Assembly (NCBI RefSeq): GCF_004124325.1
Contig: NZ_QBDT01000001.1
Span: 6,634,001 to 6,698,000 of the forward strand
Origin: Streptomyces sp. L2
Lineage (GTDB): Bacteria > Actinomycetota > Actinomycetes > Streptomycetales > Streptomycetaceae
Length of the DNA: 64,000 nucleotides
Direction of reading: 5' to 3'
The first letter of the stretch is position 1; every line of letters starts with the position of its first letter. Of the stretch, positions 5,040 through 63,100 are shown piece after piece. The position numbers and the translations under genes are program-made. The notes beneath the pieces were generated by a model, which was not told the DNA's origin, ran no database searches, and saw nothing but the letters and a program-made list of their open reading frames with translations.

Positions 5040-5060
5040 GGCGGCCCTTTCCCCAGGTCG

Positions 5061-5125
5061 AACGCGTCGGATCAACGCGTCGGATCAACGCGTCGGATCA
5101 ACACGTAGGACGAACGCGTCGGTGA
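5061..5125. repeat. Five-copy 13-bp tandem repeat
   Basis: Units of 13 bases: AACGCGTCGGATC three times exactly (5061-5073, 5074-5086, 5087-5099), then two degenerate copies (5100-5112, 5113-5125). They start 22 bases upstream of the secreted-protein start, in its presumed promoter. Confidence 0.9.
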
Positions 5126-5255
5126 ACGGGGACCACTCTCCCGGCGCCGGACCGCCCGCACATCGCCCCTCGGGTGGCCTCCCGCCTCCCCCGTGCGGCG
5201 GGGAGCCCTGACCCTCGCCTGCGCCCCGGGGAGGAGGCGGACCCCGCCCGGCGGC

Positions 5256-5317
5256 GCGCAACGAATCGCCACCGCCCCCCCGCTCCACGCAACGAACCGC
5301 GCACCGGCGCGCAACGG
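5256..5317. promoter_or_regulatory. Three CGCAACG direct repeats upstream of davA
   Basis: GCGCAACGAA at 5256-5265, ACGCAACGAA at 5287-5296 and GCGCAACGG at 5309-5317 lie in the same orientation with starts 31 and 22 bases apart, close to three and two helical turns. The array is 80-140 bases before the davA start, where activator sites would be expected. The regulator is unknown; the local Lrp protein is a candidate. Confidence 0.4.
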
Positions 5318-5395
5318 CTCCTTCTTGTCCGCCCGAGCGCGCCGACCGTACCGTCTTAGTGGCCCCCCAAACCCCCTTTCCGGTGAGGATCACGC

Positions 5396-6184: not shown

Positions 6185-6233
6185 CCGTAACGAGCCCGCC
6201 CCGAACCACCCCCGCGCAAGGAGTCCGTACCCC

Positions 6234-7952: not shown

Positions 7953-7980
7953 GCGCCCGGGAAAGCACCGCCGGACCGGC

Positions 7981-8910: not shown

Positions 8911-9035
8911 GTGCGTACTCCTTCGAGATCGGTTGCCCGTTCAACGTACAGAGATCGCCGGGGACGTCCAGGAGGCCGCGCGGAGGTTGGCCTGATCGGG
9001 GTGCCGGACGGCGGGTGGCCGCCCGGCCGACCGGC

Positions 9036-9722
9036 TCAGTCGGGCAGGGGGATGAGCAGCATCCGGCCCGCGAAGCCGACGGCCGAGTCCAGCCGCTCGG
9101 TGAACTCCTCGGCGACGTCCTCGAACCGGCGCAGCGCCCACAGCGCCCTCGCCGCCGACCAGGTCGCCTCCCGGGCCCGCTCCAGGCTCCAGGAGCCCAG
9201 CAGGTGGGTGAGCGGATCGGCGATCTGGAGCAGGTCGGGGCCCGGCATCAGATCCTCGCGGATGCGTTCCTCCAGCGAGGCGAGGAGATCGCCCACCCGG
9301 TCGAACTCGTCCTCCAGGTCGGCCGGTTCGCAGCCGAGCGCACGGCAGGTGTCCACCACCGCGAGCGCCAGGTCGTGCCCGATGTGGGCGTTGATGCCCG
9401 CGAGCGCGAACTGCAGCGGCCGTACACCCGGATGGCGGCGCAGCTGGAACAGGGGGCGCCAGCAGGCGGGCGGGCGGCGGTCGTCCGCGACGGCGTCCAC
9501 GGCGGCCAGATAGCGCTCGGCGAACCGCACGTCCAGGGTGGCCGCCGCCCGCGGGTCGGGGAACGCGCCCCTGGTCAGGCGCCGGCCGACCTCCCGGGTG
9601 ACGGCGAGGTAGACACGGTTGAACACGGCGATCCCGTCCCGCTCGGGCAGTGCCGCGTCGAGGGCACGCATCCGGGACACGACGGCGTCGACGGGGGTGG
9701 TGAACTGCTCCAACTGCGCCAT
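9036..9722 (-). CDS. DUF5995-family protein
   Basis: 228-residue cytoplasmic protein. The pattern LPERDGIAVFNRVYLAVTREV near the start, WRPLFQLRRHPGVRPLQFALAGINAHIGHDLALAV in the middle, and a helical C-terminus fit the actinobacterial DUF5995 family, which has no assigned function. The His/Asn-rich GINAHIGHD resembles a metal or active site, but that is a guess. It lies between an F420 enzyme and a permease, all on the minus strand, with gaps above 120 bases, so it is probably its own unit. Confidence 0.72.
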   Translation of the reverse strand: MAQLEQFTTPVDAVVSRMRALDAALPERDGIAVFNRVYLAVTREVGRRLTRGAFPDPRAAATLDVRFAERYLAAVDAVADDRRPPACWRPLFQLRRHPGVRPLQFALAGINAHIGHDLALAVVDTCRALGCEPADLEDEFDRVGDLLASLEERIREDLMPGPDLLQIADPLTHLLGSWSLERAREATWSAARALWALRRFEDVAEEFTERLDSAVGFAGRMLLIPLPD

Positions 9723-9818
9723 GGGGGAAGGGTCCCAGCCCCGGCCCGCCCCGCGCGCCGACCGGCCCGGCGCTTCGCCGGAACGGGGGAACCACGGACC
9801 GAACCGGGCACAGCGGGC

Positions 9819-9914
9819 GGTCGGGGCGCCTAGGGCTCGGGGTGCCCAGTGTTCGGGGTGCCTACGGCTCGGGGCGCCTACGGTTCGGGGTGCCTGCGGT
9901 TCACGGTGCTTACG
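9819..9914. repeat. Six-copy 16-bp tandem repeat
   Basis: Units begin at 9819, 9835, 9851, 9867, 9883 and 9899; the consensus is GTTCGGGGTGCCTACG with one to five differences per copy. The array fills the spacer after the uracil permease and its last unit contains that gene's stop codon (9910-9912). Confidence 0.85.
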
Positions 9915-11301
9915 GCTCGGTGCGGGGGGCCCGGTCGTCGTAGGAGGACGTCCCCTCGTCCAGCAGCGGCTGCCGTCCCTTCAGGTGCGGGGGCGCGAAG
10001 GCGCGCAGCACGTGGTAGCCGGTGATCACGACCAGCGTGCCGAGCGCGATGCCGCTGAGGGAGAAGGTGTCGGTGAACTTCATGGTCACGTTTCCGACGC
10101 CGATGATGATGCCCGCGGCGGCCGGGACCAGGTTCAGCGGGTTGCGCAGGTCCACCTTGGCGTTGAGCCAGATCTGGGCGCCGAGGAGCCCGATCATGCC
10201 GTACAGGATGACCGTGATGCCGCCGAGCACCCCGCCCGGGATCGCGGCCACCACCGCGCCGAACTTGGGGCAGACGCCGAAGAGGAGCGCGAAGCCGGCG
10301 GCGGCCCAGTAGGCGGCGGTGGAGTAGACGCGGGTCGCGGCCATCACGCCGATGTTCTCGGAGTACGTGGTGTTCGGCGGGCCGCCGACCGCGGTCGACA
10401 GCACCGAGGCGACGCCGTCCGCCGAGATCGCCGTACCGAGCTTGTCGTCCAGCGGGTCGCCGGTCATCTCGCCCACCGCCTTCACGTGCCCCGCGTTCTC
10501 GGCGACCAGGGCGATCACCACCGGCAGCGCGACCAGGACCGCCGACCACTGGAAGGACGGCCCGTGGAAGTGGGGCAGGCCGATCCAGTCGGCGTGCGAG
10601 ACGCCGGAGAGGTCCAGGCGCCAGTGGTCGGTGACCTTGCCGCCCGCGCCCATGGAGTGGATTTTGCCGAAGATCCGGTCGAAGGCCCAGGAGATGCCGT
10701 ACCCGAAGACCAGGCCGAGGAAGATGGCGACGCGGGACCAGAAGCCGCGCAGGCACACCACGGCGAGCCCGGTGAAGAGCATGACCAGCAGGGCGGTCCA
10801 CTGGTCCTGCGGCCAGTACGTGGAGGCGGTGACCGGGGCCAGGTTGAAGCCGATCAGCATGACGACGGCGCCGGTGACGATCGGCGGCATGGCCGCGTGG
10901 ATGATCCGCGCGCCGAACCGCTGCACCGCGAGCCCCACGAGGAACAGCACGGCGCCGACGACGAGGATCGCCCCGGTCACCGTCGCGCTCGTGCCGCCCT
11001 GGGCCCGGATCACGGCGGCCACGCCCACGAACGACAGTGAGCAGCCGAGGTAGCTGGGCACCCGGCCGCGCGTGGCGAGGAGGAAGATCACCGTCGCCAC
11101 GCCGGACATCATGATGGCGAGGTTCGGGTCGAGACCCATCAAGACGGGGGCGACGAACGACGCGCCGAACATCGCGACCACGTGCTGGGCGCCGAGCCCC
11201 ACGGTGCGGGGCCAGGAGAGCCGTTCGTCGGGGCGTACCACCGCTCCGGGCGCGGGAACGCGTCCGTCACCGTGCAGCTTCCAGCGCACGCCGAGATCCA
11301 T
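9910..11301 (-). CDS. Uracil-xanthine permease (NCS2 family)
   Basis: 463-residue transporter from ATG 11301 (MDLGVRWKLHGDG); a GTG at 11376 would add 25 polar residues. About 14 membrane segments are present. GLGAQHVVAMFGASFVAP in helix 1, GFNLAPVT, VALVAENAGH in helix 8 and TTYSENIGVMAATRVYS in helix 10 are NCS2 hallmarks, and the Glu in ENIGV with the upstream VAENAGH is typical of uracil-type (UraA) members. It is predicted to import uracil or xanthine with protons. Its C-terminus runs into the 16-bp tandem array. Confidence 0.88.
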   Translation of the reverse strand: MDLGVRWKLHGDGRVPAPGAVVRPDERLSWPRTVGLGAQHVVAMFGASFVAPVLMGLDPNLAIMMSGVATVIFLLATRGRVPSYLGCSLSFVGVAAVIRAQGGTSATVTGAILVVGAVLFLVGLAVQRFGARIIHAAMPPIVTGAVVMLIGFNLAPVTASTYWPQDQWTALLVMLFTGLAVVCLRGFWSRVAIFLGLVFGYGISWAFDRIFGKIHSMGAGGKVTDHWRLDLSGVSHADWIGLPHFHGPSFQWSAVLVALPVVIALVAENAGHVKAVGEMTGDPLDDKLGTAISADGVASVLSTAVGGPPNTTYSENIGVMAATRVYSTAAYWAAAGFALLFGVCPKFGAVVAAIPGGVLGGITVILYGMIGLLGAQIWLNAKVDLRNPLNLVPAAAGIIIGVGNVTMKFTDTFSLSGIALGTLVVITGYHVLRAFAPPHLKGRQPLLDEGTSSYDDRAPRTEP

Positions 11302-11382
11302 GGTGGGGTTTCGCTTTCTCTGTACGTGAAGACGTTCCGGACCATTGTCAGGGGTAGCTGGGGGCTCTACGCTCACACGGTC

Positions 11383-11404
11383 TCATTCATGAACATCATT
11401 CATA
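11383..11404. promoter_or_regulatory. AT-rich direct repeat in a divergent promoter region
   Basis: TCATTCAT occurs at 11383-11390 and 11397-11404 with GAACAT between. The whole segment 11380-11420 is strikingly AT-rich for this chromosome and lies between the divergent permease and alginate-lyase genes, so it probably holds a promoter and an operator. Confidence 0.45.
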
Positions 11405-11434
11405 TACATGTCTCATGACTCTCAGGAGTGTCCG

Positions 11435-12691
11435 ATGGGCGTCAGATCCCGAGTGGCCCTCGTCCTCGCCGCCGTGGTCGCGTGCGGAGCCGTACTCGTC
11501 CCCTCCGCGCACGCGGCACCGCGCACCCCGGCCACCGCCGTCCTCGACGGCGCCCGGCTCCAGCGGGCACGGGCCCGCCTGCCCCACGACCCCGCGCTGC
11601 GCCGTGCGGTCGCCGCGCTGACCGACCGCGCGGACGCCTGGCTCGGCCAGGGGCCCTGGACGGTCGTCGACAAGCCCCGGCCCGCGCCCGGCGGCGACGT
11701 CCACGAGTACCTCAGCCAGGCGCCCTACTGGTGGCCCACCACGGCCCCCACCGCCGGCAACCCGTGGGGCTGCCCGTACGTCCAGCGCGACGGACAGCGC
11801 AATCCCGAGGTCGACAGCGGCACCGACCGGCAGGACGCCGAGAAGGTCTTCGACTCGACGTACGACCTCGCGCTCGCCTGGTACTACACCGGCAGGCGGA
11901 GCTACGCCGAGAAGGCCGGGCAGATCCTGCGCACCTGGTTCCTGGACCCGGCCACCCGGATGAACCCCGACCTGGACCACGCCCAGTTCATCCCCTGCAA
12001 GTACGACGGCCGGGCCATCGGGGTCATCGACTTCTCGCAGTCGTACACGAGCGTGCTCGACGCGCAGGCCCTCCTCGCCACCGGCGCCCCCGGCTGGACC
12101 GCCGGCGACCGCGCCGCGATGCGCGGGTGGAACTCCCGCTTCCTGGACTGGCTGAAGAACAGCGCCTTCGGCAAGCAGGAGGGCGCCGCCGCCAACAACC
12201 ACGGCACGTTCTACGACATGCAGCTCGCCGCCCTCGCCTACGCCACCGGCGACCGGGCCCTGGCCCGGCGCACCGTGCTCGACGCGCGCGCGAAGCGGAT
12301 CGACCCGCAGATCGCGGGCGACGGCGGTCAGCCGCAGGAACTCGCCCGCACCCGCAGCTGGCACTACTCCACCTTCGACCTGGTCGCCTACACCCGGCTC
12401 GCGGCCATCGGCCGGCACGTGGGGGTGGACCTGTGGCACTACCGCGGCCCCGACGGGCAGAGCCTGTTCAAGGCGGTCGACTATCTGCTGCCCGCCGCGA
12501 CGGGAGCCGCGGCCTGGCCGCACCCGGAGCTGGAGTTCCACCGGTACGCGGCGAGCGACGTGGTGCACGCGGCGGCGGACGCGGGCGACCGGGCGGCGCG
12601 GGCGGCCGTACCGGACCTCCAGGCGCCTCCCGGCGGTGACCTGTGGGCCCTGCGGCCCGCCGCCGAGCAGCTGGACTCGATCGCGGGATGA
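11435..12691 (+). CDS. Secreted alginate-lyase-fold polysaccharide lyase
   Basis: 418 residues from ATG 11435, with AGGAG seven bases upstream (in-frame GTG 11408 gives an N-terminus unlike a signal peptide). Signal peptide 1-27 ends AHA. The rest matches the alginate lyase (PL5-like alpha/alpha barrel) domain: YWWPTTAPTAGNPWGCPYVQRDGQRNPE, HAQFIPCKYDGRAIGVIDF and the active-site region NNHGTFYDMQ near residue 255. The last is conserved in lyases that beta-eliminate uronic acid polymers. The natural substrate is unknown; soil Streptomyces use such enzymes on plant or microbial uronates. Confidence 0.85.
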   Translation: MGVRSRVALVLAAVVACGAVLVPSAHAAPRTPATAVLDGARLQRARARLPHDPALRRAVAALTDRADAWLGQGPWTVVDKPRPAPGGDVHEYLSQAPYWWPTTAPTAGNPWGCPYVQRDGQRNPEVDSGTDRQDAEKVFDSTYDLALAWYYTGRRSYAEKAGQILRTWFLDPATRMNPDLDHAQFIPCKYDGRAIGVIDFSQSYTSVLDAQALLATGAPGWTAGDRAAMRGWNSRFLDWLKNSAFGKQEGAAANNHGTFYDMQLAALAYATGDRALARRTVLDARAKRIDPQIAGDGGQPQELARTRSWHYSTFDLVAYTRLAAIGRHVGVDLWHYRGPDGQSLFKAVDYLLPAATGAAAWPHPELEFHRYAASDVVHAAADAGDRAARAAVPDLQAPPGGDLWALRPAAEQLDSIAG

Positions 12692-12819
12692 CCGCGCCGG
12701 GCCGTTGACCAGGGAGTTCCCCGGCCCGCCCGTCGCCTAGCGGTTGCTGAGCGGTCGCTTAGGGTGGAAGGGTCCGGGGGTGTCCCGCGCCCCGCCCGCC
12801 CTGTTCAGGAGTTCCACCC

Positions 12820-13278
12820 GTGACCGCCGAAGCCCCGCCCGCCCCCGTCGTCGCCCACGGCCGGCTGATCCCCGTCACCGTCCACTTCGACGACCTCGAC
12901 GCGCTGGGGCTCCTCCACAACGCCCGCTACCCGCTGATGGTCGAGCGCGCGTGGACCGAGCTGTGGAACGAGCACGGGGTGCGCTTCGACGGCGACTGGG
13001 TGGCGGCCGGGGACGCCTGCAACGCGGTCAGGGAACTCACCATCACCTATGAGGCACCGGTGACCCGCCCCGGTGGCTACGCCGTCCACCTCTGGCTGGA
13101 ACGGCTCGGCACCACCGGCCTGACCTACGGCTTCCGGTTCTGCTCCGCCGACGGGACCGAGACCTACGCGCGCGGCACCCGGGTCCTGGTCCGGCTGGAC
13201 GCGGCGACGCTGCGGCCGGCTCCCTGGAGCGAGGGCTTCAGGGCCGTGGGTCGGGGACTGCTGCGGCCCGTCGGCTGA
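12820..13278 (+). CDS. Acyl-CoA thioesterase (4-hydroxybenzoyl-CoA thioesterase type)
   Basis: 152-residue single hot-dog domain. VHFDDLDALGLLHNARYPLMVERA near residue 20-43 holds the Asp and the D(L)DALGxLHNxxY motif of the 4HBT/YbgC family, which hydrolyse acyl-CoA thioesters in the cytoplasm. GTG 12820 is preceded by TCAGGAG. A TAGGGT sequence about 60 bases upstream may be the -10 element. The 3' end overlaps the oppositely oriented MFS gene by 41 bases. Confidence 0.82.
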   Translation: MTAEAPPAPVVAHGRLIPVTVHFDDLDALGLLHNARYPLMVERAWTELWNEHGVRFDGDWVAAGDACNAVRELTITYEAPVTRPGGYAVHLWLERLGTTGLTYGFRFCSADGTETYARGTRVLVRLDAATLRPAPWSEGFRAVGRGLLRPVG

Positions 13279-14452
13279 CCTCGCCGGCGACGCCGCGCTC
13301 CGCGGTGCGCAGCACGCCCGCGAACAGGGCGAGACCGAAGGCCAGCGCGGACACCACGCAGAACGAGACCATCAGGCTGGTCGCCTGGGCTACCCCGCCG
13401 ATCAGGCTCGGCGCGATCAGCCCCGAGGTGTAGGTGATGGTCGCGACGCCCGCGATGGCCTGACTGGGGTTGGGCCCGGCGTGCCCCGCGGCGGCGAAGC
13501 ACAGCGGTACGACCACCGCGATGCCGAGCCCCATCAGCGCGAACCCCGCCATCGCCACCGCCGGGTGCCCCGCGACGACGATCAGCACGCCGCCGAGCAC
13601 GGCGAGGAAGCCGCCGGCCCGCACGGTGCGGACCGCGCCGAAGCGGTTCACCACCGCGTCCCCGGCGATCCGGGCCACCGCCATGGTCAGCATGAACCCG
13701 GTCGTCGTCGCGGCGGCCAGACCGGCCGAGGTGTCCAGTTGGTCGCGGAGGTAGACCGCCGACCAGTCCAGGCTCGCGCCCTCCGCGAACACCGCGCAGA
13801 AACCGACGGCGCCGATCAGCAGCGCCGAGCGGGGCGGCAGCGCGAACCGCGGCGGCGGCTCCTCGTCCTCGGCGGGCTGGACGTCGAGGACCCGGCCGGC
13901 GGCCAGCACGCCCAGCACGGTGAGGACGGCCGCGGCGAGCAGGAAGTGCACGCGCGCGTCCGCGCCGAGGTGCGCGGCGAGGGTGCCCCCGGCCGAGCCG
14001 ATCAGCGCGCCCGCGCTCCACATGCCGTGCAGCCCCGACATGATGGACTTGCCGAGCAGCCGCTCCACCTCGACCCCGAGCGCGTTCATCGCCACGTCGG
14101 CCATGCCCGCGCAGGCGCCGTAGGTGAACATCGCCAGGCAGAGCGTGTACAGGTTCGGCGCGAGGGCCGGCAGGACCAGCGACAGCGTCCACAGCGCGAT
14201 GAGGCCGCGCAGGGCCGTCCGGCTGCCGAAGGTGTGGCTGATCCGGCCGGCCAGCGGCATGGCGCACGAGGCACCGAGCGCGGTGAAGGCCAGCGCGAAT
14301 CCGAGCTGGCCGGCGCTGAGCGAGGCGTGTTCCTGGACCCAGGGCACGCGGGTGGCGAAGGAACCGGTCACGGCGCCGTGCACGGCGAAGACGGCCGCGA
14401 CCGCGTACCGGGCGCGCCGGACCTCCTCGCGTGTGTACTCCCCGTCGGCCAT
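13238..14452 (-). CDS. MFS transporter, probable ROK-controlled sugar/solute permease
   Basis: 404 residues with 12 membrane segments. The loop 2-3 motif is degenerate (GRISHTFGSRTALRG, residues 65-80) and a central hydrophilic loop (DVQPAEDEEPPPRFALP) separates the halves; the layout resembles fucose permease-like MFS members. It is divergent from a ROK-family regulator, and a perfect dyad (14511-14533) lies between them, so repression relieved by a sugar is likely. Whether it imports or exports is not visible. Its 3' end overlaps the thioesterase gene. Confidence 0.82.
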   Translation of the reverse strand: MADGEYTREEVRRARYAVAAVFAVHGAVTGSFATRVPWVQEHASLSAGQLGFALAFTALGASCAMPLAGRISHTFGSRTALRGLIALWTLSLVLPALAPNLYTLCLAMFTYGACAGMADVAMNALGVEVERLLGKSIMSGLHGMWSAGALIGSAGGTLAAHLGADARVHFLLAAAVLTVLGVLAAGRVLDVQPAEDEEPPPRFALPPRSALLIGAVGFCAVFAEGASLDWSAVYLRDQLDTSAGLAAATTTGFMLTMAVARIAGDAVVNRFGAVRTVRAGGFLAVLGGVLIVVAGHPAVAMAGFALMGLGIAVVVPLCFAAAGHAGPNPSQAIAGVATITYTSGLIAPSLIGGVAQATSLMVSFCVVSALAFGLALFAGVLRTAERGVAGEVSRRAAAVPDPRP

Positions 14453-53864: not shown

Positions 53865-54560
53865 ATGGCAGAGCAGTTGACGGAACTGGCCGACGACCGG
53901 GCGCTCCTGGGGCGCACCAGCACCGCCGAGCGGGTCTCGGACATCCTCAGGAGCCGGATCGCCGAGGGCTTCTTCCCGCCGGGCACCCGCCTGTCGGAGG
54001 ACAGCATCGGCGGGGCGCTCGGCGTCTCCCGCAACACCCTGCGCGAGGCGTTCCGGCTGCTCACCCACGAGCGCCTGCTGGTCCACGAGCTCAACCGCGG
54101 CGTCTTCGTCCGGGTCCCCACCGTCGAGGACGTCGAGGACATCTACCGCACCCGGGCCCTGGTCGAGTGCGCCGTCGTCCGGGGCCTCGGCGACCCGCCG
54201 TACCCGCTGGAGGAGCTGGCCGCCGCCGTCACCGACGGCCAGGTGGCGGCCGCCGAGAATGACTGGAAAGCGCTGGGCACGGCCAACATCCACTTCCACC
54301 GCGAGCTGGTCGCCCTCGCCGGCAGCGAGCGCACCGACGAGCTGATGCGCAGCGTCTTCGCCGAACTGCGCCTCGCCTTCCACGTCGTGGACCACCCGCG
54401 CCGGCTGCACGAGCCCTACCTCGTCCGCAACCGCCGGCTGCTCGAGGCCCTGGAGGCGGGCGACCGCCGGGAGGCGGAGCGGCTGCTGGAGACCTATCTC
54501 GCCGACTCCCTCCAGCGGGTCGTCGAGGTGTACCGGCGCCGGGTGGACGGCACCCCGTAG
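53865..54560 (+). CDS. GntR-family (FCD) regulator of the oxoproline operon
   Basis: 231 residues: winged HTH (15-85; RIAEGFFPPGTRLSEDSIGGALGVSRNTLREAFRLL) and FCD ligand domain (90-220) with metal ligands in the pattern of DWKALGTANIHFHREL and LVRNRRLLEALEAGDRREAERLLETYL. FCD regulators usually sense small carboxylates. Divergent from the pxp operon and sharing a perfect dyad, so it very likely represses that operon until pyroglutamate or a related acid is present. Confidence 0.88.
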   Translation: MAEQLTELADDRALLGRTSTAERVSDILRSRIAEGFFPPGTRLSEDSIGGALGVSRNTLREAFRLLTHERLLVHELNRGVFVRVPTVEDVEDIYRTRALVECAVVRGLGDPPYPLEELAAAVTDGQVAAAENDWKALGTANIHFHRELVALAGSERTDELMRSVFAELRLAFHVVDHPRRLHEPYLVRNRRLLEALEAGDRREAERLLETYLADSLQRVVEVYRRRVDGTP

Positions 54561-54602
54561 CGGCACCGGGACGTCGTTTGGGCCGTTGTCAGACCGAGGA
54601 CC

Positions 54603-54615: not shown

Positions 54616-56142
54616 GTGACTTCGCCTGCACCGACGGACCGTGTTCCGCCCCAGCTCAGCGCGGGGCCGCGCCCCGCTCCGGGGCCGGCCGCCGACGAGA
54701 GGCTGGCGCGGCGGCTGCGCGCGCTCGCCTGTACCGCGCCGCTGCACGACCTCGATCAGCGCAAGGCCAACCTCGCCGGTGAGTACTCGGTCTACGGCAT
54801 GGCCGAGGTGGCCCTGGCCGCCATCGACCTGGTCACGCTGAACATGGACTTCGACACGGGCGCCGACCACGAGCAGATCGTCGCCCGGCTCATCCCGCGC
54901 ATCGCCGCCCAGGCCCCGCGGCGGCCCGTCGCCGAGCACGAGCGCGTGGCCCGCTGGGTCCTGGAGAACCTGATCAACGTCGGCAGCGTGGACCGCGGCT
55001 TCCGCGCGGTGTACGGCACGTTCGCCCCCGACGGCACCTACGTCCGCCGGGACTACGACTTCAAGCTGATCGAGGAGGTCCCCGGCCCCGGCGGCACGGT
55101 CTACCTCCGCACCACCGACGAGGCCGTCAACGTGCTGGTGGGCGCCCTCGACACCGACGTCACCAGCGCCCAGATCGCCGCCGAGGTCAAGCTGGAGGTG
55201 CTGATCAGCCGCGGCCGCCTCGCCGACGCCCAGCTCGCCGCCGAACAGGCCCGCTACCGCACCGTGCAGTACTCCGAGACCTTGCGCCGGGCCCTGGACG
55301 CCACCCGGCGCAACGTGCGCGCGGTGGACTGGCTCAGCGCCGTCCCCGACATGATCGCCGAGGCCCTGGAACACGTCGCCGACCGGTACCGGCACGAGAA
55401 CGCGATCCTCACCAACATCCGCAAGGCGCGCGACGAGACGGAGGACCCCGAGCACAAGCGGCGGGCCGCCGAGCTGGTCGACATCGTCAAGGACTGCATC
55501 CGCCGCCACACCCAGCTCCAGTCCCGCCTGCTGGAGGCGGGCCCCCTCTTCCGCGCCGAACAGGACCGGCAGGCCTTCGCCACACCCGCCGCGACCTCCG
55601 GCATCGACCTGTACGGCCATCTCGTCGCGCCGGCCCTGCCGTTGCCCCTGGAACAGGCGGTCCGGGTCACCGACGCCTTCTTCGCGCGCGGAACCGGGCC
55701 GCGCACGCCGGTGTCGGTCAGGGTGAGTGACCTGGTCGGGATACTGCTGACGCCGCCCCAGGAACGGGAGCACCTGGGCGCGGAGATGCCCGAGCCCGAC
55801 CTCATCGCCACGCCGGACGACAGCCGGTTCAGCGAGGAGCAGCTGGCGTCCGCCATGGAACTGCTGGACCTGCCCGCCGACGCGCCGCGCAGACTGTCCG
55901 GGCTGCTCGCCGACGCCCGCGCGCAGGATCCCGACCTGCCCTATCTCGTCGCGCTGCTGGCCGTGCACGCGGCCAGCCCCCCGGTCGGCACCGCCTACCG
56001 GCAGGGCGAGGAGAAGCTGCTGTTCGCCGTGGACGACGGCACGGAACTGGACGACCCCGAGTTCGGCGGGGCCGACCTGATCGTCGGCACGGCCCTGCTG
56101 GACGCGGCGGGCATGGCGGCCGACCGGACGGAGGCCGCGTGA
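54616..56142 (+). CDS. Kleisin-like (MukF/MksF/JetA-type) subunit of an SMC complex
   Basis: 508 residues from GTG 54616; a TTG at 54586 is less likely. After a Pro/Ala tail (1-30) comes a conserved helical block DLDQRKANLAGEYSVYGMAEVALAAIDLV, a winged-helix-like segment (100-150; VARWVLENLINVGSVDRGFRAVY), a beta pair (YVRRDYDFKLIEEV), then a long helical region (180-320; ARYRTVQYSETLRRALDATRRNVRAVDW). This order matches the MukF/JetA architecture. Assignment rests mainly on the gene order with a KITE-like and an SMC-like gene. The C-terminal 150 residues would contact the SMC head. Confidence 0.65.
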   Translation: MTSPAPTDRVPPQLSAGPRPAPGPAADERLARRLRALACTAPLHDLDQRKANLAGEYSVYGMAEVALAAIDLVTLNMDFDTGADHEQIVARLIPRIAAQAPRRPVAEHERVARWVLENLINVGSVDRGFRAVYGTFAPDGTYVRRDYDFKLIEEVPGPGGTVYLRTTDEAVNVLVGALDTDVTSAQIAAEVKLEVLISRGRLADAQLAAEQARYRTVQYSETLRRALDATRRNVRAVDWLSAVPDMIAEALEHVADRYRHENAILTNIRKARDETEDPEHKRRAAELVDIVKDCIRRHTQLQSRLLEAGPLFRAEQDRQAFATPAATSGIDLYGHLVAPALPLPLEQAVRVTDAFFARGTGPRTPVSVRVSDLVGILLTPPQEREHLGAEMPEPDLIATPDDSRFSEEQLASAMELLDLPADAPRRLSGLLADARAQDPDLPYLVALLAVHAASPPVGTAYRQGEEKLLFAVDDGTELDDPEFGGADLIVGTALLDAAGMAADRTEAA

Positions 56143-56327
56143 GGGACCTACCGGCGGCGCCCCCATCCGGCGCCGTACTCAAGACCGCCGCGCCCGCAGC
56201 CGGCGCCGTTCCCAAGGCTGCCGCGCCCGCGCCGCGCGCCGTTCCCAAGACCGCCGCGCCCGCGCCCGGCGCCGTACTCAACACCGTTCCGAACACTGTT
56301 CTGAAGACCAAGGAGCCCCGGCCGTGA
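56139..56327 (+). CDS. 62-residue repeat ORF bridging two operon genes
   Basis: GTG 56139 overlaps the stop of the upstream gene in GTGA, and its own stop (56325-56327) overlaps GTG 56324 of the next gene in GTGA. The protein is four 11-residue repeats (GAVLKTAAPAA, GAVPKAAAPAP, RAVPKTAAPAP, GAVLNTVPNTV) encoded by 33-base DNA units at 56169, 56202, 56235 and 56268, then LKTKEPRP. It resembles a Lys/Ala/Pro histone H1-like tail. It may be a real small basic protein or a translated spacer that keeps ribosomes coupled. Confidence 0.55.
   Translation: MRDLPAAPPSGAVLKTAAPAAGAVPKAAAPAPRAVPKTAAPAPGAVLNTVPNTVLKTKEPRP
56169..56300 (+). repeat. Four-copy 33-bp tandem repeat inside the SMC operon
   Basis: Units 56169-56201, 56202-56234, 56235-56267 and 56268-56300 begin GGCGCCGT or CGCGCCGT; the first three are the most alike and the fourth is degenerate in its second half. 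All are in the same reading frame, so copy number changes would keep the bridge ORF open. Confidence 0.9.
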
Positions 56328-57202
56328 GCGAGCATGTCGAGTGGACTGACACGGAGACGCCGGCGCCGTCGGTGTCCGCCGCCGTCACCCCCGCCGACGC
56401 CGCCGACGCGGCCCGGCTCGTCGCCTTCGGACTGCAGCCCAAACTGCAGCCCGCCCGCGACCAGGAGTACACCGAACTGCTCCGCCGCTACCGGGACGAC
56501 CCCCCGTTCGCGCGGCTCGCCGACGCCGTCGCCGCCGGCCTGGGCCTCGTCGTACTGGAGGTGTCCCCGCGCGCGGGAATGGCCGTGACCGCCGCCGAGG
56601 ACTCGGTGTTCGCCGTCCGCATGGGCGACTACGCGCGTCGCACCGCCGCCGACTCCGGAGACCGCTTCCTGCACGGCCTGGCCCATCTCGCGGTCGCCGC
56701 GCTGGCCTTCCCGCGCCCCGAGGACCTGGCCGACGACGCCTACATCGGCCGTATCACCGTCAACGGCGTCGACGCCTTCGTCCGGCAGGCCTGCCGCCGC
56801 CTGGAGGAACGCGCCGAGCAACAGGGCGAGAACACCGACCCCGCCACCGACGCGCCCGGCCTGGAAGCGGCCTGGCGGATCTGGGCGAGACGCAGCGCGA
56901 CCGGTGCCACCAAGGACGCGCGCCGGCCCGCCGCCTCCACCACCGGCATCGTCGCCAAGGCCGCGGCCTTCCTCACCGACTCCGGCTTCCTGCAGCGCAC
57001 CGGCGACGACAACGGCGGCACCTACCGCACCACCGCCCGCTACCAGCTCCAGGTCCGCGACATGGCCGGGGCCGCCGCCATGGCCGAACTGCTGGACCTC
57101 GGCGTCGTCCCGGTCACCGACGGCACCGCCAGCCTGCTGCCCGGCGAGGACTCCGACGACCTGGACCTGGTGGCCGGCGCCGGACTGCCGTTCCACTCCT
57201 GA
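56324..57202 (+). CDS. KITE-like winged-helix (MukE/MksE/JetB-type) subunit
   Basis: 292 residues from GTG 56324. The first 60 are polar, then a helical block (LARLADAVAAGLGLVVLEVSPRAGMAVTAAEDSVFAVRMGDYAR) and HLAVAALAFPRP. The C-terminal winged helix at about 205-250 reads TTGIVAKAAAFLTDSGFLQR, then GTYRTTARYQLQVRDMA, the wing. This is the layout of MukE/KITE proteins that bind the kleisin and SMC head. Function inferred from position between the kleisin-like and SMC-like genes. Confidence 0.66.
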   Translation: MSEHVEWTDTETPAPSVSAAVTPADAADAARLVAFGLQPKLQPARDQEYTELLRRYRDDPPFARLADAVAAGLGLVVLEVSPRAGMAVTAAEDSVFAVRMGDYARRTAADSGDRFLHGLAHLAVAALAFPRPEDLADDAYIGRITVNGVDAFVRQACRRLEERAEQQGENTDPATDAPGLEAAWRIWARRSATGATKDARRPAASTTGIVAKAAAFLTDSGFLQRTGDDNGGTYRTTARYQLQVRDMAGAAAMAELLDLGVVPVTDGTASLLPGEDSDDLDLVAGAGLPFHS

Positions 57203-57240
57203 CCCACCGAACGTTTCGACCACACTGACGAGAGTCCGCC

Positions 57241-60200
57241 ATGTACGAGCTGTCCCGGGTCCGCCTCTACTCCATCGGGCCCGCCGGCGCGCGCTACGCC
57301 GACACCGTGCTCGACCTGCGCGGGGTCGGCCAACCCGTGCCCGACCCCGCCCCCACCCAGGCGGAGTTCTTCGAGGAGGAGCCGGCCGGCCCGCCGCGCC
57401 GCCCCGCGCCCGCGGGCGTGCTGTTCCTGGAGAACGGCGGCGGCAAGTCAGTCCTGCTCAAGCTGATCTTCTCGGTGATGCTGCCGGGCCACCGCAACAC
57501 CCTCGGCGGCGCCAGCTCCGGCGTGCTGCGCAAGTTCCTGCTGGCCGACGACTGCGGGCACGTGGCCCTGGAATGGCAGCACGTGCAGACCGGCGAGTGC
57601 GTCGTCGTAGGCAAGGTCAGCGAGTGGCGCGGGCGCCAGGTCTCGGGCGACCCGCGCAAGTTCGCCGAGGCCTGGTACTCCTTCCGGCCCGGCCCCGGCC
57701 TGAGCCTGGACAACCTGCCGGTCGCCGAGTCCACCGCCGTACGGCCGCCCGTCGAGGGCCAGTCGGGCGCCCAGGGCCGGCGGCGCACCATGAAGGGCTT
57801 CCGGGACGCCCTCACCGAGGCCGGCAAGGCCTACCCGCACCTGGAGGCGCACTGGGAGGAGATCCACGACCGCTGGATCGAGCACCTCGGCGACCTCGGC
57901 CTCGACCCCGAACTCTTCCGCTACCAGCGCGAGATGAACGCCGACGAGGGCGAGGCCGCCGGCCTCTTCGCGGTCAAGAAGGACTCCGACTTCACCGACC
58001 TGCTGCTGCGCGCCGTCACCGACACCCGCGACACGGACGGCCTCGCCGACCTGGTCAGCGGCTTCGGCGACAAGTTGGGCCGCCGGGCCGAGCTGATCGC
58101 CGAACGCGACTTCACCGCCGGCTCCGCAGATCTCCTAGGCCGGATCGTCGAGGCCGCCGAGACGCGGTCCCGCGCGCGTGACATCCACGCCGGGGCCGAG
58201 CGCCGCACCCGCACCCTGGCCCGCAGACTCTCCGCGCGTGCCGTGCGGGAACGGGTGCGGGCCGCCGACCTCGCCCAGCGGGTCACGGCCGCCGCCTACG
58301 CCGTCACCCACTCCGAGGGCGCCCGCGAGCGCAGTGCCCTGATCGCCGCCGAACTCGCCTACCGCCACGCCTCCCTGGCGCTGGCCGGCGCCGAGAAGTC
58401 CGCCGCCGCGCAGAAGCGGGAACTGGCCGACGCGCGCACCCTGCACGCCGCCTGGCAGGCCGCCGAGGCCGTACTGCGTCACCGCGCCGCCGCCGACCGC
58501 GTCGCGCGCGTGTCCGCCGCCATCCAGGAGGCCGAACGCGACGCCGCACCCGCGCTCGCCGCCCGCGCCAAGGCCGCCGTGGACCTCGTACGGGCCCTGC
58601 ACGCGGCCGCGGAGGGCGCCGAGGCCCTCGCCGACGAGGACGAGGAGCGCTCCGCCGCGCTCCAGGAGGTCAGCGACGCCGCGTACCGCGACTCCACCGC
58701 CGCCGCCACCGAGGCGCAGCGCGCCCGCAGCGAGGCCGGGCACCTGCGCCAGCGCCTCACCGAGGTCGAGCAGGAGACGGCGGAGGCGGTCCGCGCGGGC
58801 TGGCTCGACGACAGCGCCCCGGACGCCGACCCCGCGCGCGCGGCGCTCGCCGCGAGCGACGCCGAGAAGAGCGCCGTGGCCGCCTGGGACACCGCCCGTG
58901 AAGCCGCCCGCAGGGCCACCGAGCACGCGCGTGAGGCGGCCGCCGCCGAGTCCCGCGCGGAGCTGACGGCGGCCCGCGCGTCGGACGCGGCTACGGCCGC
59001 CGAGCGGGCCCACGAGGCCGAGCGGCGGCTCGCCGAGGTCCTGGCGGCCGAGGAGCGCCTCGCGGAGCTGCTGAGCCTGCCGGGCGCCCCCGTGGCCGGC
59101 CGGGCAGGAGTGCCGGGCCCCCGGACGGCCGGCGACGGCGGCGCGGACCGGGGAACCACAGAGCAGGGCACCGCAGAACTCGATGCCCCGCGTGGAGGGG
59201 ACGCGGGCGAACCGGCCCCGCGCGCACACGCGAACGCCACGGCCGCCCACGCGCGCGGAGACGCCGGAGCTCAGGGCGGCCCCGCCGCGGACGGCAGCCC
59301 GTACGGATCCACCGACGCGGCCCTCGGCGACGGCCCGCTCACCCCCGAGCAGTTGGACCGCTTCGCCGATGAGCTGCGCGACCTGCTCGACGCCGCCGTC
59401 ACCTCGGCCGAGCGGCACCTGTTCGAGTTGCGTACGGCCGCCGCCGACGACGCCCGCATCCTCGGCGCCCTGGGCGACGGCGGGCTGCTGCCGCCCGGCC
59501 CCGACGTGCTGGCCACCGTCGAGTTCCTCGGCGAGCACGGCATTCCCGCGCTGCCCGGCTGGCGCTACCTCGCCCAGGCGGTGGACCCCGCCGACCACGC
59601 GCGCGTGCTCGCCGCCCGGCCCGAACTCGTCGACGGCGTCATCATCACCGACCCCGGCACGCACGCGCGTGCCCGCGACGCGCTCAGCGCCGCCGCCCTG
59701 CTGCCCCGCTCGGCCGTGGCCGTCGGCACGTCCGCCGCCCTGCTCGCCCCCACCCCGGCACCCGGCAGCGCTCCCGAGGACGTCTTCCTGGTGCCGCCGA
59801 ACCCGGCCATGCACGACGAGCACGCCGCCGACGAGGAACGACAGGCCCTGCGCGTGCGGGCCGCCGACCGGGACGAGGAGATCCGCACCCTCGCCGCCCG
59901 GCTCGGCAAGGACCGCGAGCTGACCGCCCGGCTCACCTCATGGCGCACCGGCTGCCCCGCCGGCCGGCTCGCCGAACTCGCCGAGACCGCCCGCCAGGCC
60001 CGCGCGTTCGCCGAGGAGTCCGAGGCCGAACTCGCCGAGGCCCGCACCGCGCGGACCGAGGCCGACGAGGCCGGTGGCGAGGCCGTGCGGATCCGGGACG
60101 AGCGCCAGGAAGCCGCGCAGAAGGCCCGCCGCGCCGCCGACGCCCTCGCCGGACTCGCCTTCCGGCTCCGCGAACGGGCCGCTTGGCAGGTCCGGCTCCG

Positions 60201-62061
60201 TGAACTGGCCGACGAGGCCGCCGAGTCCGAGGACCGCGCCCAGACCTGCCTGGACCGCGCCCGCACCGCCGACGAGGACCGCCGCGCCGCCCAGCGTGCC
60301 GCCGACGACGCCCGCCGCACCGCCCGTGCGCTGCGCGCCGAGCGCTCCGAGATCGCCGGCGCCCCCGACGACGTGCCCGACGACGTGCCCGACGACGCCA
60401 CGGACGCCCCGAAGGCCGCCCTCCCCGCCCTCCGCGAGGCCTACCGGGCCGCCTCCCAGGTGTACGAGAAGGTCGGCGTCGGTGCCGACCTGCGCGCCGA
60501 GCAGGCCCGCGCGGAGAGCGACGAGAGCGCCGCCCACGCGGAACTGGACCGGCTCAGCAACAAGGTCCGCGCCCGCGCCGAGCAGCTGCTGCGGTCCCCG
60601 GACGGCTCCGACGGCCCCTCCCGGCAGGCGGCGGCCGCGCGCGCCGAGGAACTGGTCCAGCTGTTGGAGACCCGCATGTCCTCCGCGAGCGAACAACTCG
60701 GCCGGCTGCGCGGCGAGGCCGAACGGCACGCCCCCGCGGCCGGCGAGGCACACACCGAACTGCCCGACGAACTCCTCCCGCGCGACGCCGAGCACGCCCA
60801 GGCCCTCCTGCGCACCGCCACCGCCGAACTCACCGCCCGCACCGAGGCGCTGACCGAGGCCCGCGCCGCCCACACCGAGCTGCTCCAGGCGCACCGGGCC
60901 GCCGAGGACGCGGCCGGCGGCTTCGACGAGATCGCCGCCATGCTCCGCGACCTGCTGCGCGAGCACGGCCCCGAGGAGGAGCAGGAGGAGACCGAGCCCT
61001 ACCCCGGCAGCCCGGAGGAGGCACGGCACTCCGCCGCCGAGGCCCGCCGCTCGCTGCGCGGCTGCGCCGCCGACCTGTCCGCCGCCGAGACGGCCGTGCG
61101 CGAGGCGAGCGACGTCCTCGTCCGGCACGCCAACTCCACGCGCTACGAGCAGGTGCGCACCCCCGCCCGGCAGCAGATCCGCGAACTGCCCGCCTCCGCG
61201 CTGCCGGAACACGCGCAGAAGTGGGCCGACGCCTTCGCGCCCCGGCTGCGCGTCCTCACCGACGAACTGGCGCAGCTGGAACGCAACCGTGACTCGATCG
61301 TGGACCGGCTCCGGGGCCTCGTCGAGTCGGCCCTCGCCACCCTGCGCTCCGCCCAGCGCCTCTCCCGCCTCCCCGAAGGGCTCGGCGAATGGTCCGGGCA
61401 GGAGTTCCTGCGCATCCGCTTCGAGGAACCCGACCAGGCGACCCTCGCCGAACGTCTCGGCGAGGTCATCGACGACGCGACCCGCGCCGCGGTGAAGAAG
61501 AACTCCGACCTGCGCCGCGACGGCATGTCCCTGCTGCTGCGGGGTGTCGCGGCGGCGCTGCAGCCCAAGGGCGTGGCCGTGGAGATCCTCAAGCCGGACG
61601 CCGTGCTGCGCGCCGAGCGGGTGCCCGTCGGCCAGATGGGCGACGTCTTCTCCGGCGGCCAGCTGCTCACTGCGGCCATCGCCCTGTACTGCACGATGGC
61701 CGCCCTGCGCTCCAACGACCGCGGCCGCGACAAGCACCGGCACGCCGGAACCCTGTTCCTGGACAACCCGATCGGCCGCGCCAACGCGACGTATCTGCTG
61801 GAGCTTCAGCGGGCCGTGTCCGACGCGCTCGGCGTCCAGCTGCTCTACACCACCGGCCTCTTCGACACGACCGCGCTGGCAGAGTTTCCGCTGGTCATCC
61901 GCCTGCGCAACGACGCCGACCTCAGGGCGGGCCTGAAGTACATCAGCGTGGAGGAACACCTCAGGCCGGGGCTGCCGCGCGAGGCTTCCACGGAGGAGGC
62001 CGCGCACAGCGAGATCACGGCGACGCGGATGTACAGACGACCGGCACCGGGCGCCTCGTAG
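57241..62061 (+). CDS. SMC/MukB/JetC-like coiled-coil ATPase
   Basis: 1606 residues. N-terminal ATPase half (1-280) with Walker A LENGGGKSVLL at 63-73. Coiled coil from about 290 to 610, a Gly/Ala-rich insert (616-696), a globular hinge-like domain (730-855; GLLPPGPDVLATVEFLGEHGIPALPGWRYLAQ, GVIITDPG), returning coiled coil to about 1410, and the C-terminal ATPase half with signature FSGGQLLTAAIALYCTM near 1470 and Walker B TLFLDNPIGRAN near 1504. Asn replaces the usual catalytic Glu. ATG 57241 has GAGAG upstream. Expected to form a DNA-loading or loop-extruding condensin with the two upstream proteins. Confidence 0.8.
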   Translation: MYELSRVRLYSIGPAGARYADTVLDLRGVGQPVPDPAPTQAEFFEEEPAGPPRRPAPAGVLFLENGGGKSVLLKLIFSVMLPGHRNTLGGASSGVLRKFLLADDCGHVALEWQHVQTGECVVVGKVSEWRGRQVSGDPRKFAEAWYSFRPGPGLSLDNLPVAESTAVRPPVEGQSGAQGRRRTMKGFRDALTEAGKAYPHLEAHWEEIHDRWIEHLGDLGLDPELFRYQREMNADEGEAAGLFAVKKDSDFTDLLLRAVTDTRDTDGLADLVSGFGDKLGRRAELIAERDFTAGSADLLGRIVEAAETRSRARDIHAGAERRTRTLARRLSARAVRERVRAADLAQRVTAAAYAVTHSEGARERSALIAAELAYRHASLALAGAEKSAAAQKRELADARTLHAAWQAAEAVLRHRAAADRVARVSAAIQEAERDAAPALAARAKAAVDLVRALHAAAEGAEALADEDEERSAALQEVSDAAYRDSTAAATEAQRARSEAGHLRQRLTEVEQETAEAVRAGWLDDSAPDADPARAALAASDAEKSAVAAWDTAREAARRATEHAREAAAAESRAELTAARASDAATAAERAHEAERRLAEVLAAEERLAELLSLPGAPVAGRAGVPGPRTAGDGGADRGTTEQGTAELDAPRGGDAGEPAPRAHANATAAHARGDAGAQGGPAADGSPYGSTDAALGDGPLTPEQLDRFADELRDLLDAAVTSAERHLFELRTAAADDARILGALGDGGLLPPGPDVLATVEFLGEHGIPALPGWRYLAQAVDPADHARVLAARPELVDGVIITDPGTHARARDALSAAALLPRSAVAVGTSAALLAPTPAPGSAPEDVFLVPPNPAMHDEHAADEERQALRVRAADRDEEIRTLAARLGKDRELTARLTSWRTGCPAGRLAELAETARQARAFAEESEAELAEARTARTEADEAGGEAVRIRDERQEAAQKARRAADALAGLAFRLRERAAWQVRLRELADEAAESEDRAQTCLDRARTADEDRRAAQRAADDARRTARALRAERSEIAGAPDDVPDDVPDDATDAPKAALPALREAYRAASQVYEKVGVGADLRAEQARAESDESAAHAELDRLSNKVRARAEQLLRSPDGSDGPSRQAAAARAEELVQLLETRMSSASEQLGRLRGEAERHAPAAGEAHTELPDELLPRDAEHAQALLRTATAELTARTEALTEARAAHTELLQAHRAAEDAAGGFDEIAAMLRDLLREHGPEEEQEETEPYPGSPEEARHSAAEARRSLRGCAADLSAAETAVREASDVLVRHANSTRYEQVRTPARQQIRELPASALPEHAQKWADAFAPRLRVLTDELAQLERNRDSIVDRLRGLVESALATLRSAQRLSRLPEGLGEWSGQEFLRIRFEEPDQATLAERLGEVIDDATRAAVKKNSDLRRDGMSLLLRGVAAALQPKGVAVEILKPDAVLRAERVPVGQMGDVFSGGQLLTAAIALYCTMAALRSNDRGRDKHRHAGTLFLDNPIGRANATYLLELQRAVSDALGVQLLYTTGLFDTTALAEFPLVIRLRNDADLRAGLKYISVEEHLRPGLPREASTEEAAHSEITATRMYRRPAPGAS

Positions 62062-62148: not shown

Positions 62149-62682
62149 TCAGGAGTGAGACAGCTGCCCGGAGCCGCCCCGGCGGCGTATCCGCTCCTGC
62201 TCCCGCAGAGCGGCCCGCTCCCGGCGGCGGGCGGCGCGCCGCTCCCGGCGCAGCGCGCGGGCCGTGCTGCTCGGCTCGGAGACCACCCCGTACCGCTGGT
62301 GCCACACCTGACGGGTCACCCACACGTCGACCGCGGCCCAGGTGGCCACCACCGTGCTGGCCACACCGCTGATCACCATGGGGAACGCCAGCCAGGACCC
62401 GGCCATCGTGCACAGGAAGGCCACCACGGCCTGGATGAGCGTCACCGCGGTGATCAGGACGGCCCGCACCGCCGCCGTACGCACCGGATCGGGCATCCGG
62501 TACCGCCGCGCCGGCTCCTCCACCCACAACGGCCGGTACCGCTCCCGCTGTTGCTCCCCAAAAGCCCGCTCGGCGGGCTCACACGCCGGAATCTCGCGAT
62601 CCGGCACCCCCTGGGCCCACCGCACCGTCGAGCGCGCGGCCCCTCCGTCCTCGGGCGCCTCGTGCCGCTGAGCCGTGCCCAT
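62149..62682 (-). CDS. Two-helix membrane protein of unknown function
   Basis: 177 residues from ATG 62682; the frame is open upstream to 62895 but that part looks non-natural. A polar N-terminus with RERYRPLWVEEPARRYRMPDP leads to two membrane helices (about 72-125; AVRAVLITAVTLIQAVVAFLCTMAGSWLAFPMVISGVASTVVATWAAVDVWV), then a very basic Arg-rich C-terminus (ALRRERRAARRRERAALREQERIRRR). No family recognised. It is divergent from the histidine kinase; 62683-63100 holds the promoters and nothing else I can name. Confidence 0.7.
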   Translation of the reverse strand: MGTAQRHEAPEDGGAARSTVRWAQGVPDREIPACEPAERAFGEQQRERYRPLWVEEPARRYRMPDPVRTAAVRAVLITAVTLIQAVVAFLCTMAGSWLAFPMVISGVASTVVATWAAVDVWVTRQVWHQRYGVVSEPSSTARALRRERRAARRRERAALREQERIRRRGGSGQLSHS

Positions 62683-63100
62683 CACCTTGTCACTCCCCAC
62701 CGCCGGAAGACCGCTCGCCCCGGTGTCCGAAGACCCCGACACCCACTGGCTGCCCGGCTTGCGCTGTTTTACGCCGCCGGGATGCGGGATGCGGCTCATG
62801 TGGCCGATTCCGCCCCCATTTCCCACAGAGAAGGACGAACGGCACCGTCTGAAGATTCCCGATCGGCGAAAGAATTCAGCCAACTGGCTTTCCATATCAG
62901 ACCGTCCGGCCGTTTCCAGCCGCCGGTTTCACGGTGACCATCTCCCGCAATGCCCGGACAACTCGCCATCTCTCGCCGCTGTCAAGGACGTTCGCCCGTC
63001 GAGCGTGTCTTCGAGATAGCTGTGAGGCGGTAGTAGGCTCGCGCCGTTTGTTGACGAACATGTGCGCCCCCGGCCGGCGGGGGTCGAGCTGGGGGAGGCC

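Follow-up and report, generated by a model that had tools for sequence, protein, structure and literature searches.

The question whether chromosomal condensins such as MukBEF and MksBEF were once defence systems is posed as an open one in the available part of PMC10586767, according to which MksBEF of Pseudomonas aeruginosa, likely a JetABCD system minus JetD, contributes to chromosome organisation. A different role is assigned to MksBEFG of Corynebacterium glutamicum, which, in the accessible sections of two papers, serves plasmid maintenance and not chromosome folding (PMC7083940; PMC10123090). For Streptomyces, the accessible portions of chromosome-folding papers speak of one condensin, SMC-ScpAB (PMC8410768, PMC13121528), and an S. 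venezuelae strain mutated in both smc and hupS is called 'rather mild' there (PMC8410768). Here we describe a three-gene locus in the window, that is, the whole stretch of 64,000 nucleotides of Streptomyces sp. L2 DNA that was analysed, which contains the following features.

53865..54560, + strand: GntR/FCD regulator (Pfam FCD, GntR), upstream neighbour of jetA
54616..56142, + strand: jetA-like gene, MukF/JetA-type kleisin, 508 aa from GTG (alternative in-frame TTG start at 54586)
56157..56286, no strand: tandem repeat between jetA and jetB (imperfect, 33-bp unit, 3.9 copies; TRF score 167)
56324..57202, + strand: jetB-like gene, MukE/JetB-type KITE (winged-helix) subunit, 292 aa
57241..62061, + strand: jetC-like gene, SMC/MukB-type ATPase, 1606 aa
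57430..57450, + strand: JetC Walker A (ENGGGKS), the same in 25/25 Streptomycetaceae loci
61648..61662, + strand: JetC ABC signature (FSGGQ), the same in 25/25 Streptomycetaceae loci
61753..61767, + strand: JetC Walker B (LFLDN), LFLDNPIGRA in 25/25 core loci
62149..62895, - strand: convergent small membrane-type ORF, no Pfam match, at the operon end and outside the system

The operon is real, with all three open reading frames, including that of the 1606-residue SMC-like ATPase, at the predicted position and on the predicted strand. The tight spacing claimed in the original prediction holds between jetB and jetC (38 nt) but not between jetA and jetB, where in the window 181 nt separate the end of jetA from the first in-frame jetB start; across 22 loci this spacer ranges from -4 to 355 nt. 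The 'bridge ORF' (56139-56327), once suggested as the complex's own partner, originates from the 33-bp tandem repeat within this spacer of variable length, and was rejected in that role. The next gene was rightly described as convergent, and two hydrophobic stretches are seen by eye in its translation; as a partner it too was rejected, given its opposite strand, the fact that a relative was called in only 13 of the genus's 20 core loci, and the presence of other kinds of genes after jetC at Frankiaceae loci. The recurrent gene after jetC in the genus is a histidine kinase, lying as a rule beyond this ORF, and in Frankiaceae the next called gene after jetC is on the other strand in 7/8 distinct genomes. 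Upstream, the GntR/FCD family was called in 9/20 core loci, all neighbours being taken from a simple composition-based gene caller.

The family call of kleisin-like, KITE-like and SMC-like subunits is borne out by matches of the jetA-like product to PADLOC JetA3 (PDLC00567; 618 bits, E 3.4e-186) and of the jetC-like product to JetC3 (PDLC00588; 1409 bits, E 0), and by an identity of 39-58% between the jetB-like product and JetB of nine JetD-bearing type III Wadjet operons. The jetB-like product has no PADLOC JetB3 match, and neither has the JetB of L066, which comes from a JetD-bearing operon. In structure searches the jetA-like and jetB-like products fell in with MukF and with MukE/JetB, respectively, and not with unrelated folds: the best Foldseek match of the JetA AlphaFold model is a 440-residue MukBEF chain (E 7e-4, probability 0.99), presumably MukF, and for the predicted fold of JetB MukE ranks first in Foldseek and JetB first in VIA-align. 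For JetC there was no PDB sequence match, PDB sequence searches of the complex gave nothing meaningful, and a search of the jetC-like product against NCBIfam gave no family at E <= 1, SMC_prok_B (TIGR02168) included; the profile sets compared with this protein were those of PADLOC, Pfam and NCBIfam. In the 19 other core loci JetA identity is 83-94%, and JetC identity is 77.5-87% over ~1600 columns in 14, the remaining five matching in pieces. Among 120 listed relatives of the KITE subunit, those with names carry only 'hypothetical' or 'uncharacterized protein'. SCO1631-1634, considered as the S. coelicolor locus, was dropped, because the accessible parts of papers place helicase and Tat genes there.

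With type III Wadjet (JetABCD) the locus shares the JetA3 and JetC3 matches, JetB homology, the A-B-C order and the DNP Walker B motif, one difference being JetD, of which none was found here in locus or genome. JetC also tends to be longer, with 1521-1608 aa in 10 Streptomycetaceae copies as against 1481-1535 in eight unbroken JetD-bearing copies, ranges that overlap and were measured by profile limits. A kleisin, a KITE and an SMC subunit in a single operon without a nuclease is the composition of the MksBEF/MukBEF type. P. aeruginosa MksBEF has the same kleisin-KITE-SMC make-up, co-exists with SMC-ScpAB and acts without MksG, but belongs with type I Wadjet and MukBEF, whereas the complex here matches type III models. 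Enterobacterial MukBEF, in which the operon follows the same F-E-B logic, provides the best Foldseek matches of the predicted JetA and JetB folds, yet shows no sequence similarity to this complex in PDB searches; moreover, its hosts are to our knowledge without SMC-ScpAB, whereas a normal SMC is present in the genome here (923 bits, at C1:1.93 Mb), as in 20/20 core genomes. MksBEFG of C. glutamicum is likewise a second condensin-type complex of an actinomycete, but has the nuclease MksG where the complex here is without JetD.

Most SMC proteins have Glu at the Walker B position where JetC here has Asn, and the rate of hydrolysis is for this reason uncertain. That the Asn denotes a dead ATPase, or marks the loss of JetD, was rejected, since it is common to type III JetC with JetD, the DNP motif being present in 13/15 JetD-bearing JetC examined. 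A broken JetC frame was seen in a Frankia copy, L134.

The call of an operon without a JetD nuclease held in searches that covered the locus, the rest of the genome and other genomes of the genus. Neither JetD_C (PF09983) nor type III JetD (searched by profile, E up to 0.01) was found in the organism's own genome, and JetD/MksG adjoins no conserved version of the locus, being present in 0/22 core loci of the genus and in 0/62 named loci that extend more than 1.5 kb beyond JetC, the latter drawn from 80 chosen by likeness to JetD-free JetA and partly overlapping the former in genomes. Since JetD is missing, the complex is by membership not a Wadjet system. A Wadjet completed in trans, by a JetD encoded elsewhere or by an unrelated nuclease, could still be envisaged, as JetD_C-family proteins occur in 24/199 Streptomyces genomes and cross-talk is therefore conceivable in those. 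We regard this as very unlikely, given the empty searches of the own genome, the at least 167/199 genomes of the genus without JetD by either search (a union in which weak matches were scored as present), and the fact that no recurrent same-strand gene was seen directly after jetC. Clear type III JetD is patchy (14/199 genomes of the genus) and goes with extra JetA matches, being found in 13/17 genomes where JetA matched more than once vs 1/176 with a single match; G128, G141, G171 and G174, each with two matches, are without a clear type III JetD. This is the unbiased comparison, for the JetD count of 10/10 in the divergent copies L066-L075 is biased by nine having been fetched through a JetD_C match, L070 alone being taken for its second JetA.

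How often JetD was lost depends on which JetD-bearing rows are compared. In the first tree (50 rows) 37/38 JetD-free rows grouped with support 81/82; the exception was L143, which may or may not carry JetD, as its contig ends inside jetC (L308 is also cut by a contig end). One single loss is nevertheless not favoured, because the grouping broke once other JetD-bearing rows were used: it was kept in 26% of bootstrap trees in a 35-row tree with such rows and in 44% in a 21-row tree, and it is contradicted by branches of 98/97 and 99/98 in a 22-row tree with L304 and a 21-row tree without it, the rows of these four trees having been picked for completeness and thinned by hand. By the AU test a single JetD-free clade is rejected with L304 (22 rows, p 4e-6), but not without L304 (p 0.059), nor in the other 21-row tree (p 0.497). 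JetD thus appears to have been lost repeatedly, and two or three losses are favoured by these sequence trees, though not proven, on a root placed by choice on L066/L068; the JetD-free lineage of Frankiaceae is probably an independent loss.

In the genus Streptomyces itself the complex is close to universal. JetA was found in 193/199 genomes (192/194 good ones) and JetC in four of the six without a JetA match, such that 197/199 have one or the other, the two with neither being assemblies 78% and 81% complete; in a second Streptomycetaceae genus JetA is present in 14/14 genomes. Purifying selection acts on the core proteins, with dN/dS of 0.07-0.26 over 18 pairwise comparisons. Their mean pairwise distances are 0.121 (JetA), 0.126 (JetB) and 0.177 (JetC), and that of the N-half of SMC is 0.163, JetC thus diverging slightly faster. 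The descent of all three tracks that of SMC (Mantel r 0.68 for JetA, 0.49 for JetB and 0.68 for JetC; 0/2000 permutations as high). No phage record holds a JetA relative, and only five plasmid records do, all less than 60% identical.

These data bear on the possibility that JetABC remains a defence without a nuclease of its own, which sequesters, silences or destabilises small circular or foreign DNA, or passes it to a general nuclease. Close JetD-bearing relatives look anti-plasmid by gene content, and an eroded JetD interface was looked for and not found: residues common only to both JetD-bearing groups number four in JetA, one in JetB and seven in JetC, numbers that control pairings give as well (1-5, 0-7 and 6-17, respectively), and, as changes linked to JetD loss are not enriched, the sensing core may be unchanged. 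However, defence systems are usually patchy, as type III JetD is, in contrast to the near-universal and SMC-like descent of JetABC here, and small circular plasmids are maintained stably in laboratory strains of Streptomyces; we therefore think such a defence unlikely, if less so than a nuclease in trans. As a separate lead only, two positions of JetA, 181 (Glu to Thr) and 231 (Asp to Asn), cleanly separate JetD-bearing from JetD-free copies.

Outside Streptomyces the distribution is narrow. The JetD-free form occurs mainly in two families, Streptomycetaceae and Frankiaceae, the latter with JetA in only 19/35 genomes, and both are mycelial and spore-forming, which could point to a specialised maintenance factor acting, for example, in septation of multigenomic hyphae, spore compaction, DNA repair or at chromosome arms; the location of the locus 0.5-1.8 Mb from a contig end in 16/17 genomes with long contigs can be read in the same sense. 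However, JetA was found in only 6/137 genera sampled in the class, in searches that list matches and not every non-matching genome (unlisted Streptomyces without a match being possible there), and other mycelial, spore-forming actinomycetes presumably manage without the complex. Frankia chromosomes are circular, making a link with linear chromosome ends unlikely, and a specialised role of this kind appears to us very unlikely.

That the locus represents JetABC without JetD, core and vertically inherited, we hold to be nearly certain. The fuller statement, that this type III Wadjet-derived JetABC minus JetD is a condensin-like chromosomal loop extruder, we consider somewhat more probable than its negation. 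A type III Wadjet (JetABCD) ancestor would have lost the nuclease JetD, and the resulting kleisin-KITE-SMC complex would have become fixed as a vertically inherited core complex of Streptomycetaceae. Like Wadjet and MukBEF, JetABC would still load on DNA and extrude loops with ATP, but in the absence of JetD loop extrusion would no longer finish in cleavage, so that the complex would act on the chromosome, probably that of its own cell, where it may serve alongside SMC-ScpAB, and in part redundantly with it, as a further condensin-like factor for folding or segregation, comparable to P. aeruginosa MksBEF. Among the three options originally offered, the housekeeping condensin is the best supported, the nuclease in trans is weakened and a bridge ORF partner falls away. 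A second condensin would explain the mild smc hupS phenotype in S. venezuelae. The wider proposal that Streptomycetaceae and Frankiaceae independently made a type III Wadjet into a resident chromosomal condensin by shedding JetD, such that all of Streptomyces would have two loop extruders, the second explaining mild smc mutants, is more tentative, and we rate it as possible but slightly less probable than not.

No description of a nuclease-free Streptomyces complex was found in the open-access literature searched. If the preferred reading is true, the presence of a second SMC complex, conserved to about the same degree as SMC, changes the reading of smc mutants. It also bears on the question, raised in the available part of PMC10586767, whether MukBEF/MksBEF-like chromosomal condensins have a defence-system past, for here the nuclease-free form and its nuclease-bearing relatives still exist side by side within one genus.

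The 8.07-Mb genome of Streptomyces sp. L2 (two contigs, completeness 100) gave no match to the JetD_C domain (PF09983) in a whole-genome profile search and, because PF09983 scores type III JetD proteins weakly, a second profile (A2) was built from seven of these, again without a match in this genome. Across the genus, JetD_C was present in 24 of 199 Streptomyces genomes and the type III JetD profile matched 17 (14 at E < 1e-40 and three as short weak pieces), such that either search was positive in 32 genomes and neither in 167. The original prediction, that the operon lacks a nuclease partner, agrees with this survey at the level of gene neighbourhoods: jetABC is found in all 22 core loci, that is, those holding the copy typical of the genus (20 from Streptomyces plus two more; L046-L065, L142, L144), and jetD in none of them. 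Nor was jetD found in any of the 62 named loci reaching more than 1.5 kb past jetC, a subset of 80 that were picked by likeness to the JetD-free JetA and partly overlap the other locus set.

JetA3 itself occurs in 193 of 199 Streptomyces genomes, and in 192 of the 194 with at least 90% completeness and at most 5% contamination. Among the six negative genomes, JetC was found in four (G050, G073, G152, G168), three of which are assemblies of more than 1000 contigs; the two with neither JetA nor JetC are 78% and 81% complete. A second genus of Streptomycetaceae has JetA in 14/14 genomes, and Kitasatospora, Actinacidiphila and Streptantibioticus are represented among the named loci. Class-wide, the PADLOC model detected JetA in 43 of 296 genomes and our own profile in 60 of 394, falling in 6 of 137 genera: 40 Streptomyces, 19 Frankiaceae (f20; present in 19 of 35 genomes) and one elsewhere.

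A clear type III JetD goes mostly with an additional JetA match in the genome. The JetA of 19 other core loci is 83-94% identical to that of the window, and nine divergent copies read in Streptomyces are 33-52% identical to it. All ten divergent loci fetched from the genus (L066-L075) carry jetD, a count biased by nine of them having been fetched for their JetD match; the unbiased comparison is by genome, and here a clear type III JetD was found in 13 of the 17 that hold multiple JetA matches, as against 1 of 176 with a single match (G191, in which the operon lies on a short contig). The other four of the 17 (G128, G141, G171, G174) have two JetA matches and no clear type III JetD; the second match in each may be either a divergent copy without JetD or part of a split frame. 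PADLOC JetD3 matched the accessory JetD in 3/3 tested. Relatives bearing JetD also reside on plasmids, among them a linear one of 77 kb from Rhodococcus, whose JetA is 51.6% identical and whose record annotates JetD, and a linear one of 429 kb from Streptomyces, with JetA at 29.9% identity and JetD recognised by the profile; no JetA relatives were found in phage records. The second contig of the window's genome (C2, about 295 kb as the genome total less C1) may be a plasmid.

The strongest JetD_C matches in the genus (168-186 bits; L031-L037, L081-L084) include four loci, L081-L084, where the JetD_C protein is the last in a run of genes of approximately 490-519, 205-241, 1138-1453 and 393-414 aa (the second not called in L083), which gene size and order suggest to be a different Wadjet type. 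More distant JetD proteins occur in four genomes that hold multiple JetA matches (G151, G090, G094, G022); the first two have JetD matches close to either end of the chromosome, as though these belonged to terminal inverted repeats. G009, G129 and G049 (L038-L040, L085) also have JetD_C-like open frames of 394-533 aa no more than about 51 kb from a chromosome end, with one at each end in the latter two; no type III JetABC was found at L085.

The core complex is evidently under constraint. For JetA, JetB and JetC of the window compared with six relatives (18 comparisons) dN/dS is 0.07-0.26, and for two pairs of JetD-bearing copies 0.15-0.30. The JetC Walker A (ENGGGKS), signature (FSGGQ) and Walker B (LFLDNPIGRA) motifs are invariant in 25/25 sequences; since the Asn following the Walker B Asp is common to JetD-bearing JetC (DNP in 13 of 15), it is a type III trait. 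Nor does any residue pattern characteristic of JetD loss emerge. Over 20 genomes, all of which also possess SMC (in the window's genome at 1.93 Mb, 923 bits), mean pairwise distances are 0.121 for JetA, 0.126 for JetB and 0.177 for JetC, compared to 0.163 for the SMC N-half, with which the distance matrices correlate (r 0.68, 0.49 and 0.68, respectively; 0/2000 permutations as high). By these measures the complex behaves as core genes do.

In the 20 core loci of the genus, the convergent ORF family downstream of the operon is called in 13, followed by a conservon-like set: a nitrate-sensing histidine kinase (15/20), a roadblock protein (13/20) and a DUF742 protein (14/20). In a conservon a small GTPase gene would be expected to follow these; in the window (63062 onward) and in L046 (14063-19901) the kinase, roadblock and DUF742 genes precede a 5-oxoprolinase-like gene instead. 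In several Frankiaceae the operon is convergent with lycopene cyclase genes, and the gene called next lies on the opposite strand in seven of eight distinct JetD-free genomes with JetC called, the exception (L131) being followed by a 104-residue ORF. As judged from sequence, no candidate stand-in for jetD was seen among the neighbours of jetABC loci.

Twelve Frankiaceae loci reaching at least 1.2 kb past jetC (L125-L129, L131-L134, L141, L307, L310) have no jetD, and contig ends truncate the remaining JetD-free ones. In three others, L136, L137 and L306, jetD is present. JetC is split over two frames in Frankia sp. QA3 (L134, L146) and short in L128 (open frame about 1190 aa), where all three ATPase motifs are kept. 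How often was JetD lost? In the trees with the best sampling (JetA, JetB and JetC heads), with the root chosen on JetD-bearing L066/L068, the JetD-bearing L072/L233 branch off first, then the Streptomycetaceae JetD-free clade (support 100/100). The JetD-free clade of Frankiaceae (100/100) falls together with the JetD-bearing L306, L137, L070, L073 and L075 (98/97 and 99/98), so that under this rooting JetD was lost at least twice. A single JetD-free clade is rejected by the AU test with L304 included (p 4e-6) but not without it (p 0.059), and earlier, thinner trees did not separate the main clades; two losses, one per main clade, are therefore favoured rather than proven. L304 (G700, family f48; 4934-14242), a lone JetD-free jetABC outside both families with gap- and pgk-like genes directly downstream by reading of translations, is possibly a third independent loss.

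Among the titles and abstract beginnings of the open-access papers searched, none describes a Wadjet core lacking JetD, or a second condensin, for Streptomyces or Frankia. An actinobacterial defence survey describes Wadjet as being enriched in Actinobacteria and, within Streptomyces, as frequently lying close to chromosome ends; neither 'JetD' nor 'incomplete' occurs in it, so the JetD-free set is undiscussed there under those words (PMC10482375). Similarly, in the portions seen, neither the study of the S. venezuelae smc hupS double mutant, whose phenotype its authors call 'rather mild' (PMC8410768), nor, for Streptomyces, a 2026 paper on SMC in germination (PMC13121528) names a second condensin.

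In Wadjet, sensing and loop extrusion fall to JetABC and cutting to JetD, and in B. subtilis all four Jet proteins are required against plasmids (PMC10586767). C. glutamicum MksBEFG, which has the nuclease, affects plasmids and not chromosome folding (PMC7083940), whereas the MksBEF of P. aeruginosa, likely a JetABCD without its JetD, contributes to chromosome organisation (PMC10586767). Streptomyces JetABC would be a type III counterpart of MksBEF, differing in being near-universal across a model genus. Given this pattern of precedents, a near-universal, vertically inherited and selected JetABC without JetD should act on the chromosome. Together with the mild smc hupS phenotype, the precedents suggest, as the best reading of what this complex may do in Streptomyces, a condensin-like role on the chromosome that overlaps in part with that of SMC.
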